A DNA stretch of 64,000 nucleotides, from assembly GCA_018697095.1 (NCBI GenBank), contig JABHSG010000001.1, positions 62,001-126,000 on the forward strand. Reading direction: 5' to 3'. Positions 22,158-49,577 of this stretch are shown here, piece by piece. The position numbers and the translations under genes were made by a program. Each line of letters starts with the position of its first letter. Within the stretch, counting starts at the first letter, position 1. Source of the stretch: an archaeon. GTDB taxonomy: Archaea > Nanobdellota > Nanobdellia > Woesearchaeales > GW2011-AR9. A model generated the notes under the pieces. The model worked only from the letters and a program-made list of their open reading frames with translations. It made no database searches and had not been told where the DNA came from.

Positions 22158-22233
22158 GGTGGCCGTAGTGTAACGGTTAACATTCAAGCCTGTGGAGCTT
22201 GAGATGGGGGTTCGATTCCCCCCGGCTGCCCCA
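22158..22233 (+). tRNA. tRNA-His (GTG), CCA encoded
   Basis: Acceptor GTGGCCG/CGGCTGC with G-1:C73 and CCA; anticodon arm CAAGC-CTGTGGA-GCTTG; T-arm GGGGGTTCGATTCCCCC. Confidence 0.93.
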
Positions 22234-22796: not shown

Positions 22797-24128
22797 ATGG
22801 CAAAACTACAACTAGCAAAAGGAGCACGCGATATTCCTCCAGAGATTAAACTAATCAAAAACGAAGTAATAAACAAACTTCAAACTAGTTTCGAGCGTTA
22901 CGGGTTTTCTCCAATTGAAACACCAATATTAGAACGCATGGAAACTCTAAATGCCAAGTTCGCAGCAGGTGAAGCCAGCGACGCACTTTCTGAAATTTTC
23001 AATGTTACAGACAACGCAAATAGAGCCTTAGCTTTAAGATTCGATCTTACAGTTCCGTTTGCAAGATACGTAGCAATGAACAAAGGAATGAAAATGCCAA
23101 TCAAACGTTATGAAATTGGCAGAGTTTACCGTGATGGCCCAATTAAACTTGGACGTTACCGAGAATTTTGGCAATCTGATTGTGACATTGTTGGAACTAA
23201 AAGTATGTTAGCTGAAGCTGAACTACTTGCTATTGCTCAAAATTTCTTCAAATCAATTAACGTAGACACAGTCATCAAAGTAAACAACCGTAAAGTCCTA
23301 ACTGGAATTTTAAAACAAGTAGGCATAGAAACAAAAAAAGAAATCGAATCAGCAATAATTAGTATTGATAAGTTAGATAAAATCCAAATCAGTGGAGTTA
23401 CAAAAGAACTTCTTGAAAAAGGTTTCAATGAAGAACAAACAAACAAATTATTCCAAATTATAAAACCAGGAATCACAATTAAGCAACTTAAAGACAAATT
23501 AGGTTACCCTGAAGCAATGCAAGGTCTAAAGGAATTGGAAGAACTTTTTTCTTACTTAAAATCACAAGGAACAAACTCTGCAGTTTTTGATATTTCACTT
23601 GCTCGTGGACTTGCATATTACACTGGAACTGTTTTTGAGGCATTTGACAAAGATCCTAGTGGCCCAGTTAAATCCAGCCTTTGTGGTGGTGGCAGATACG
23701 ATGATATGATTGGCGGTTTCCAAGGAGGGAACCAAATAGTGCCAGCAGTTGGAATCAGTTTTGGTATAGAACCAACAATTGATATTTTAAAAAGTCAAAA
23801 ACAAAAAGGCGACAAGAATAAGCCACTTGCAAAATCTCCAGCACAGCTCTACATCATCCCAATAGGTGACGAAGCAGTCACAAATAAATGTCTTGAAATT
23901 GCTAGTGAATTTCGTGAAGCTGATATTAACGTAGCATTCTCCATTGGAAAAAAAGGTGTCTCTAAAAATCTTGACTATGCAAATTACCAAGGAATTCCAT
24001 TTGTAGCAATCATTGGAAAAAACGAACTAGAGACAGATAAAATATCACTCAAGAATATGTTTACTGGCGATGAACAAAAAATCAGTGTTGAGGAAGCTGT
24101 GTTATTACTAGAAAAATCAAAAAATTAA
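22797..24128 (+). CDS. hisS: Histidyl-tRNA synthetase
   Basis: ALRFDLTVPFARYVA, RYEIGRVYRDGPIKLGRYREFWQSDCDIVG, GLAYYTGTVFE. Confidence 0.95.
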   Translation: MAKLQLAKGARDIPPEIKLIKNEVINKLQTSFERYGFSPIETPILERMETLNAKFAAGEASDALSEIFNVTDNANRALALRFDLTVPFARYVAMNKGMKMPIKRYEIGRVYRDGPIKLGRYREFWQSDCDIVGTKSMLAEAELLAIAQNFFKSINVDTVIKVNNRKVLTGILKQVGIETKKEIESAIISIDKLDKIQISGVTKELLEKGFNEEQTNKLFQIIKPGITIKQLKDKLGYPEAMQGLKELEELFSYLKSQGTNSAVFDISLARGLAYYTGTVFEAFDKDPSGPVKSSLCGGGRYDDMIGGFQGGNQIVPAVGISFGIEPTIDILKSQKQKGDKNKPLAKSPAQLYIIPIGDEAVTNKCLEIASEFREADINVAFSIGKKGVSKNLDYANYQGIPFVAIIGKNELETDKISLKNMFTGDEQKISVEEAVLLLEKSKN

Positions 24129-42580: not shown

Positions 42581-44680
42581 GTGGGAAAACTAAAAGACTT
42601 GTGGACATATTTAGTTACAGATCCAAATAAACAAAACAATAAATCAAAAAGTTCTCAAAACATAACACTAAAACAAACTAATAATACTACAGCAGCACCA
42701 GTAGATCTTGAAGAATCAACAGCCAAACACAAATTAGGTTTTGGTGTACTTCTATTCATTCTAATCAATGCAATTCTAGGATCATCTTTATTCTACCTTC
42801 CAAGTTTAGGAGTAATTTCATCAGGACCAGCTTCACTAATTGTTTGGCCAGCTTTGTACATTATCGCTCTAATGATAATGTTATACATTGCAGAATTAAT
42901 TACTACTTTCCCAAGTTCCGGAGGGACTTATGAATATACCAAAAAAGCATATGGACGCCCAGTTGCCTTTACCGCAGGTTGGCTAATCTGGATCGCTGGT
43001 AATCTTGGATTCGCATTAAATATTGTAGCAGCCGCCCAGTATTTTATTCCTGAAACTGGAACTGCAGCATTAGCACTGCAAATCGGGTTTTCCATTGTGT
43101 GGATAATTGCTTTAAACTACATGGCATTTCGTGGAATAGACGCTGGAGCAACTATGTTAGTTACTTTTGGAATTTTATCAGTTATAGTTTTCTCAGCACT
43201 TATCTTGCCAAGTTTTATTGACATCTCAGCGCTCACAAATGGAATCCTTACTTCTCCTTGGAACACTGAATTCATTCATCCTTTCTTTACACATTCAGGA
43301 ACAATCAGTATAGCATCATATCTTTTCCTAAGCCTTTTTCTAATCTCAGAAAGTTTCTTTGGTTTTGATACAATCACTTACTTAGCTAACGATGCTAAAG
43401 ATAAAGAAAATCTTCACAAGGTACTTTTCGCTGGGATCGCTATTTGTGGAGTAATTGTAACGCTTTATATTCTCTCAAGTTTAGGAACCATATCGCTCCA
43501 TGATTACGTAAATAACGCAAGGCCATGGGCAGTTCAAGCATTAAATATCTTAGGCCCAGGTGGACAAAACATCATCGTATTTGGAATGTATTTAGTTATA
43601 ATTGGAGCAGCTGCTGCTTGGCCAATCACTTCGTCCCGTCTAATTCAAGCAATGGCTAAAGATAAATTATTCATAACACATTTCTCCACTCCCCACCCTA
43701 AACATAAGACTCCCTACAAAGCAATTATATTTCAAACTATAGCTATCACGCTTTTCACGCTTTTCATCTTTCAAGGTTACATTGGAAAATGGGGTGACCC
43801 ATATAGAACAAGTTACCTAATCTATGTATTACTAAGCCTCATAGTTATTACACTAGTACTTTTCACAGTCCCAATACTTAGAAAAAAATTCCCAAAAACC
43901 CATAGGCCATTCAAGGCCCCATTCGCTAGAACTGGACCAATTGCAATTACAATTCTTTTCGCAGCATTAATTGCTAACTGGATTAAAATAGAAGGTCCTA
44001 TAGCTACTTCCACAATTTCACTGGCATCGTCATTTGTAATAATTGGAATTCCAATTTATTTTCTAATAGAGATGTACTATGACAAAGATGCAATTCTCAA
44101 AGTTAATGAAATCCTTTCACATGGAGCTGTTCTAACAGAAAAACTTCACTTCCCTAATTCTATTAGAAATAAACTTCTAGATCACATCCCACTTAGCTCC
44201 CTAAAAAATAAAAAAATATTAGAATACGGTTGTGGTATTGGATCACTTACAAAAGAACTTAGCACTCTTGTTGGCAAAAACGGTAATGTATTTGCTGTAG
44301 ACACATTAAAACATAATATCAAAATCACTAGTAAACGTACAAAGCATCTTGGTAACGTTACATCTTACCTTGATGACTCTTTAGAAGACTTCAACGTATT
44401 CTTGCCTATGCGCCCTAATCTTCTACTAAGTGTTGGTATGCTTTCATATATGCAAAAGCCAAAAAAGATCCTCACAAAAATAGGAGATCACCTAACAAAA
44501 GGCGCGCAGATCAGAATCATTGATTATGACAAATTCTTTTACTTCATGCCAAACGTAGAATGGATTGAAGATGATAAAACTCTCACTAAACTATTCAAAG
44601 ATTCAGGCTTCAATGTGACAATCCAAAGAAAAAGAGGATTACTATGGACATACATCATCATCGAAGGTTATAAGACATAA
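42581..44680 (+). CDS. APC-family amino acid permease fused to a C-terminal class I methyltransferase domain
   Basis: N-terminal GFGVLLFILINAILGSSLFYLPSLG and FPSSGGTYEYTKKAYG; C-terminal ILEYGCGIGSLTKELSTLVGKNGNVFAVDTLKHNI in the same ORF; GTG start. Confidence 0.85.
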   Translation: MGKLKDLWTYLVTDPNKQNNKSKSSQNITLKQTNNTTAAPVDLEESTAKHKLGFGVLLFILINAILGSSLFYLPSLGVISSGPASLIVWPALYIIALMIMLYIAELITTFPSSGGTYEYTKKAYGRPVAFTAGWLIWIAGNLGFALNIVAAAQYFIPETGTAALALQIGFSIVWIIALNYMAFRGIDAGATMLVTFGILSVIVFSALILPSFIDISALTNGILTSPWNTEFIHPFFTHSGTISIASYLFLSLFLISESFFGFDTITYLANDAKDKENLHKVLFAGIAICGVIVTLYILSSLGTISLHDYVNNARPWAVQALNILGPGGQNIIVFGMYLVIIGAAAAWPITSSRLIQAMAKDKLFITHFSTPHPKHKTPYKAIIFQTIAITLFTLFIFQGYIGKWGDPYRTSYLIYVLLSLIVITLVLFTVPILRKKFPKTHRPFKAPFARTGPIAITILFAALIANWIKIEGPIATSTISLASSFVIIGIPIYFLIEMYYDKDAILKVNEILSHGAVLTEKLHFPNSIRNKLLDHIPLSSLKNKKILEYGCGIGSLTKELSTLVGKNGNVFAVDTLKHNIKITSKRTKHLGNVTSYLDDSLEDFNVFLPMRPNLLLSVGMLSYMQKPKKILTKIGDHLTKGAQIRIIDYDKFFYFMPNVEWIEDDKTLTKLFKDSGFNVTIQRKRGLLWTYIIIEGYKT

Positions 44681-48740: not shown

Positions 48741-48861
48741 TGGGCCCGGGGGGATTTGAACCCCCAACCACACGGAGTCTTTAGTATACAGCAGTAAATT
48801 ATTCATTTTCTACTATATTGGCATATAAGCCGAGCGCTCCACCAGATTAAGCTACAGGCCC
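48741..48861 (-). tRNA. tRNA-Ile, anticodon TAT inferred, with 47-nt intron
   Basis: Acceptor GGGCCTG/CGGGCCC + A73; D-arm GCTTAATCTGGTGGAGC; anticodon loop CTTATA|intron|T; V-loop TGGTT; T-arm GGGGGTTCAAATCCCCC. Confidence 0.85.
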
Positions 48862-49472: not shown

Positions 49473-49577
49473 TGCGAAGGCCGGGATTTGAACCCGGGTC
49501 ACAGCCTCCTTGCGTACCAAAAAAACTTGTTTCCTGGTAATGGCAAGGCCGTATACTAACCACTGTACTACCTCCGC
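49473..49577 (-). tRNA. tRNA-Gly (GCC) with about 33-nt intron at 37/38
   Basis: Acceptor GCGGAGG/CCTTCGC; loop TTGCCA|intron|A; bulge-helix-bulge with TTGC/GCAA central helix and TACC/GGTA inner helix. Confidence 0.92.

Follow-up and report, generated by a model that had tools for sequence, protein, structure and literature searches.

The gene at positions 48,741 to 48,861 of the window, i.e., of the whole stretch of 64,000 nucleotides analysed here, is a genuine isoleucine tRNA gene with the rare anticodon UAU, in a tiny archaeon of the symbiont type. Judged from its genes, the whole group to which this archaeon belongs reads AUA by tRNA-Ile(UAU), which replaces the system of TiaS, agmatidine and the CAU anticodon. 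Nearly all genes of this kind found in the phylum carry an intron, the start of which pairs with the adjacent exon. Its persistence and this conserved pairing suggest a role for the intron in marking the anticodon for chemical modification ahead of its own excision.

The interrupted tRNA-Ile(UAU) gene

A tRNA-Ile with an intron had been proposed here in a first-pass annotation, which stated no strand. The gene is real and lies on the minus strand, as do all of its parts given below. The Rfam tRNA model (RF00005) matches the 121-nt pre-tRNA with 52 bits, and ARAGORN agrees when introns are permitted, reporting tRNA-Ile(tat) with an intron of 47 nt (tRNA-Ile(tat)i(39,47)). A default scan does not call the gene, to which it is blind because of the intron. 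The complete set of Ile-like arms was also drawn correctly: the acceptor strands are GGGCCTG and CGGGCCC, followed by A73, and the T-arm (GGGGG-TTCAAAT-CCCCC; 48,749 to 48,765) is uninterrupted. The mature tRNA is identical at 56 of 74 positions to the tRNA-Ile(GAU) of the same genome, and the combination of an Ile-type body with a UAU anticodon is supported by Rfam, ARAGORN and this comparison. The anticodon stem (CTCGG/CCGTG) contains a U28:U42 mismatch (48,833 and 48,772), which is shared with the nearest relative (G047, locus L110). AUA accounts for 132 of the 802 isoleucine codons (16%) in 22 genes of the window and must therefore be read.

According to ARAGORN and the comparison with relatives, the 47-nt intron is inserted between positions 37 and 38 (48,777 to 48,823, or 48,776 to 48,822 if the cut lies at 38/39). 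At its 5' end, the cut can be placed in two ways that differ by one base (A37|T...T38 or T38|...). Both boundaries give the mature loop CTTATAT, so that the anticodon (34-36; 48,825 to 48,827) does not depend on the choice. Relatives keep CTTATA followed by the intron, and this 5'-half motif is conserved in 208 genomes of the phylum; the UAU anticodon read in the first pass is thus borne out. The nine-pair hairpin described within the intron is present as well. Its arms, ATATAGTAG (48,810 to 48,818) and CTGCTGTAT (48,786 to 48,794), pair in the minimum free energy (MFE) fold of the pre-tRNA, which is more stable than expected (z = -3.05 against 200 shuffles, 0/200 equally stable). The central helix of the bulge-helix-bulge (BHB) motif had been called imperfect, and it does form three of four pairs, between CTTA (32-35; 48,826 to 48,829) and AAAG (48,779 to 48,782) in place of the usual TAAG. 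Among the UAU introns compared, four pairs are formed in 92 of 121 and three, as here, in 28 of 121; the 37/38 position and the 3-nt bulges of the window gene also fit the motif. Other drawable 7-nt loops, with UAA, UGA or AGA as anticodon, were excluded by the relatives' CTTATA and the canonical TAAG at the end of their introns. A different splice leading to another anticodon (Leu UAA, Ser UGA or AGA) could appeal to the imperfect CTTA/AAAG helix and is extremely improbable in view of the Ile-type body, A37, and the CTTATA and TAAG-type ends conserved in more than 100 relatives.

Several other genes of the window are worth mentioning. A tRNA-Gly(GCC) gene with a 33-nt intron (49,473 to 49,577, minus strand) lies close upstream of tRNA-Ile(UAU) in the same orientation. 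A tRNA-His gene (22,159 to 22,233, plus strand) shortly precedes the histidyl-tRNA synthetase gene (22,797 to 24,128, plus strand), again in the same orientation. A single open frame on the plus strand (42,581 to 44,680) joins an amino-acid permease to a C-terminal methyltransferase domain.

Reading of AUA in the absence of TiaS

The first-pass annotation connected the UAU anticodon with a missing TiaS, and the connection holds. Profile searches detected no TiaS in 38 of 38 relatives (TIGR03280), in any of 193 phylum genomes (PF08489) or, with both profiles, in the genome that contains the window (1.28 Mb in 4 contigs, 94.5% complete), and TiaS was detected in all four archaeal control genomes. 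The bacterial SSU rRNA family has no match in the genome of the window and gives no help with its taxonomy. TiaS was absent as well from all 28 named DPANN-type genomes chosen for carrying UAU, which include Micrarchaeota, Parvarchaeota, Nanohaloarchaeota, Aenigmatarchaeota, Diapherotrites and Jingweiarchaeum. The description of UAU as exceptional is right for classical archaea but does not apply here. As a model search (R1) recovered mostly GAU and other tRNAs and not UAU, exact patterns were used instead. The pattern for tRNA-Ile(UAU), which runs from the D-arm to A37, matched 208 of 370 phylum genomes, with no match to the reversed control among the matches listed, and it is also present in many other DPANN lineages; UAU is therefore probably the normal means of reading AUA here. 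Since the pattern searches see about 56% of the genomes, absence in the rest means nothing.

The joint presence of tiaS and tRNA-Ile(CAU), named in the first pass as an argument against its reading, was not observed. Besides the absence of tiaS, no tRNA-Ile2(CAU) was among the Ile-model matches listed for the genome, and the one CAU tRNA found (L030) is not Ile-like; this CAU inventory is incomplete, because the initiator tRNA-Met was not found by the tRNA searches either. In total, only 28 tRNAs of this genome (G000) score above the Rfam cut-off, and several others besides the initiator were not found. The missing tRNAs point to further interrupted, split or permuted genes. Moreover, 25 of 151 UAU genes have a second intron of 21-105 nt in the T-loop after TTCAAA (59/60), for instance L110, L111, L112, L114-L116, L118-L121, L132, L137 and L138. 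Such T-loop introns may explain tRNAs missed by ordinary scans in these genomes. A comparable arrangement is known from Cyanidioschyzon merolae, the tRNA-Ile(UAU) of which has introns in the D-, anticodon and T-arms and so, like these 25 relatives, combines a canonical with a T-arm intron; this alga is, however, a eukaryote, and its Pus1 is weakly active on U34/U36 (PMC9602550).

In Nanoarchaeum equitans and Korarchaeum cryptofilum, a tRNA-Ile3(UAU) likewise takes the place of tRNA-Ile2(CAU) (PMC8450103, PMC6000648). As here, the UAU gene of Korarchaeum has an intron and its GAU gene has none (PMC6000648). In contrast to these two isolated cases, the UAU system described here is phylum-wide, extends to further DPANN lineages and comes with a conserved intron signature. 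A literature search on UAU or TiaS in DPANN archaea gave neither a relevant hit nor a description of the signature, which is no proof of novelty. Among the bacterial records (L155-L259), intronless tRNA-Ile(UAU) genes occur in many CPR bacteria (Uhrbacteria, Doudnabacteria, Peregrinibacteria, Falkowbacteria), as well as in Ignavibacteria/Chlorobiota.

Intron retention and pairing with the exon

The exact pattern with GAU in place of UAU matched 202 of the 370 genomes, so that the sensitivity of the two patterns is alike. When a T-loop at the intronless distance was required, 98 GAU genes remained as opposed to three UAU genes. Thus, 205 of 208 tRNA-Ile(UAU) genes retain the intron, compared with at most 104 of 202 tRNA-Ile(GAU) genes of the same 370 genomes (Fisher p = 7e-33, a value that overstates independence because the genomes are related). 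The three genomes with an intronless UAU gene (G214, G322 and G379) all belong to one genus, which presumably still reads AUA; the intron is therefore not strictly indispensable. Among named genomes, an intron is found in 70 of 74 parsed archaeal UAU loci, compared with none of 28 bacterial UAU genes.

The hairpin and the imperfect BHB had rightly been noticed in the first pass, as oddities of the window gene, but the complementarity between the intron start and exon positions 29-32 was missed. In UAU introns, positions I2-I5 pair with exon 29-32, and compensatory changes are present. Over 121 distinct intron-bearing UAU genes, I2 is G without exception (121/121, against 3 of 15 GAU introns), 31:I3 is paired in 111, 30:I4 in 104 (2000 shuffles: mean 70, maximum 84) and 29:I5 in 79 (shuffle maximum 78). 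Such counts look more significant than they are because the genomes are related, and better evidence comes from slid controls and from double changes within families. The window gene's own family, for instance, contains eight G30-C(I4) and five C30-G(I4) pairs with zero exceptions, and G31 together with C at I3, a two-sided change, is confined to the window tRNA and its nearest relative. Covariation with exon bases was observed at I4, I5, I6, I7 and I12, and none was found in the 15 GAU introns. In the window gene, GGC at exon 30-32 (48,829 to 48,831), the 5' strand of the conserved hairpin, pairs with GCC at I2-I4 (48,820 to 48,822), its 3' strand, in the MFE fold of the pre-tRNA. I2-I3 also fit the BHB inner helix, and only I4-I7 and I12 favour the alternative fold alone. 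The view of the intron start as a mere BHB inner helix was rejected, as I4, which covaries with exon 30, is mostly unpaired in that helix (by eye).

In view of the Lys(UUU) introns, the pairing element is perhaps not confined to UAU. All three core pairs are present in 71 of 95 UAU introns as against 7 of 61 introns of other isotypes, and four of these seven are Lys(UUU). Within the lineage, exon 30-32 pairs with I2-I4 in four of six Lys(UUU) introns (L004, L049, L053, L059); the Lys(UUU) of the genome itself reads TTGAC TTTTAA GTCAA.

Positions I15-17 read ACA, or something close to it, in roughly half of the UAU introns. The exact triplet is found there in 30 of 121 introns and at most three times in any other register from I10 to I21. 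In these ACA-type introns, pairing tends to continue between exon 21-27 and I6-I12, leaving base 28 bulged, and this lower stem is present in 33 of 58 ACA-type introns compared with 15 of 63 other UAU introns (p = 0.0004). The extended hairpin was evaluated in a gap-free alignment of 57 sequences, picked on I15-17 and not on pairing. In this set, 78.3% of the cells are paired, against 72.3 ± 0.7% in shuffles (0/500 as high) and at most 45.5% in slid versions, and two-sided changes affect 7 of the 11 pairs (37 cells, 17 expected). Unaided, RNAalifold recovered only the three core pairs. A similar architecture was seen by eye in Micrarchaeota and Candidatus ainarchaeum. The extended fold places U33-U34 in the loop, 13 nt before ACA. 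As for the window intron, it keeps the core stem GGC/GCC, lacks the lower stem and has AAA at I15-17, and I6-I14 sits in the intron's own hairpin instead. The hairpin followed by ACA that is seen in about half of the relatives is thus not found in the window intron, in which the element has a reduced form.

The hairpin and the mature anticodon stem share exon bases and are therefore mutually exclusive, which defines two states of the pre-tRNA. In UAU pre-tRNAs, the hairpin core has a predicted pairing probability of 0.53 and the anticodon stem one of 0.22; in GAU pre-tRNAs, the values are 0.03 and 0.60, respectively.

Possible roles of the intron

The reading preferred here, and a rather likely one on the comparative sequence evidence, is that tRNA-Ile(UAU) reads AUA directly and that its intron is kept for a second pre-tRNA fold allowing modification of the anticodon loop. 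The unspliced tRNA would pair exon 29-32 with I2-I5 and, in many relatives, exon 21-27 with I6-I12. This alternative fold would disrupt the mature anticodon stem and display U33-U34-A35-U36-A37-I1 as a hairpin loop. We infer that the hairpin serves as a recognition element and that the modification is a pseudouridylation of U34 (and/or U36), with U34 as the most likely site. The modified pre-tRNA would then refold into the BHB and be spliced at 37/38, giving the anticodon loop CUUAUAU, and modification of U34 would stop tRNA-Ile(UAU) from reading AUG (Met).

A precedent exists in yeast, where Pus1 pseudouridylates U34/U36 of pre-tRNA-Ile(UAU) only if the intron is present (PMC4090602, PMC11408192). 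The isoacceptor, the intron at 37/38, the problem of telling AUA from AUG and the pairing of the intron near the anticodon are all alike. In contrast to yeast, the intron pairs here with exon 29-32 and not with the anticodon, and the TruA/Pus1 family is missing. PF01416 was absent from the genome of the window and present in only 2 of 147 phylum genomes, with 12 of 14 controls positive, and a Pus1-type enzyme was rejected on these grounds.

Archaeal Cbf5 forms Psi55 without a guide, and its PUA domain holds the CCA of a tRNA or the ACA of a guide (PMC7991803, PMC7912444). The loop of the extended hairpin starts with UU and is followed by ACA after 13 nt, the distance from the T-loop to CCA, which suggests Cbf5. 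This enzyme is the best guess for the putative modifying activity, a guess that we consider doubtful. The anticodon arm of the DPANN pre-tRNA might then mimic a T-arm/acceptor minihelix, on which guide-free Cbf5 would make Psi34 before splicing; U33-U34 would correspond to U54-U55, and the 13 nt to ACA to positions 61-73 before CCA. This mimicry is a tentative and, on balance, unlikely proposal. The UU-starting loop, the 13 nt and the ACA are what the element shares with the systems of guide-independent Cbf5 and H/ACA RNPs (PMC7991803, PMC7912444). Unlike the known Cbf5 substrates, this putative one, recognised from sequence alone, has a bulged helix of about 11 pairs and a loop of six instead of seven nucleotides, and ACA or a variant in about half of the introns.

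Alternatively, the intron could be an ordinary inherited BHB intron without any role. U34 would then stay unmodified, and discrimination against AUG would be left to the ribosome and the synthetase, as has been reported for tRNA-Ile(UAU) with unmodified U34 in some bacteria. Introns are common in these genomes, one genus has lost the UAU intron, the 28 bacterial UAU genes, many of them from reduced CPR genomes, are all intronless, and the window intron lacks most of the extended element. This explanation is nevertheless unlikely, as it would have to account for the far lower retention in the sister tRNA of the same genomes and for the covariation of five intron positions with exon bases, when GAU introns have neither such covariation nor the invariant I2.

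Another explanation takes the alternative hairpin as a splicing switch, which would delay the formation of the BHB and would not be a modification signal. The mutual exclusion of the hairpin with the BHB and the mature anticodon stem, as well as the opposite pairing probabilities in UAU and GAU pre-tRNAs, would agree with such a switch. It leaves the specificity for UAU and the fixed spacing of ACA unexplained, however, and is considered quite improbable.

Still less probable is an action of the intron after excision or in trans, as an H/ACA- or C/D-like guide instead of a fold in cis. The preference of ACA for a single register is compatible with it, the spacing in archaeal H/ACA RNAs is 14-16 nt (PMC7991803), and an intron-borne C/D guide is known from the Haloferax tRNA-Trp intron (PMC4090602). 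The intron's conserved pairing partner is, however, the neighbouring exon in cis, the sequence fits a single local hairpin, and neither a second guide arm nor C/D boxes were seen (by eye only).

How AUA is read as isoleucine without misreading of AUG in organisms that lack agmatidine and lysidine is an open question, and DPANN archaea are a large TiaS-less group in which it arises. Modification before splicing makes a concrete prediction, namely that U34 (or U36) is altered in an intron-dependent manner, within a defined hairpin of the pre-tRNA and by an enzyme other than Pus1. tRNA introns selected for function are rare, and this intron would be one of them. If true, the proposal of guide-free Cbf5 would provide a route to faithful AUA decoding that depends on neither TiaS nor Pus1, and a reason for the persistence of one tRNA intron across several phyla.
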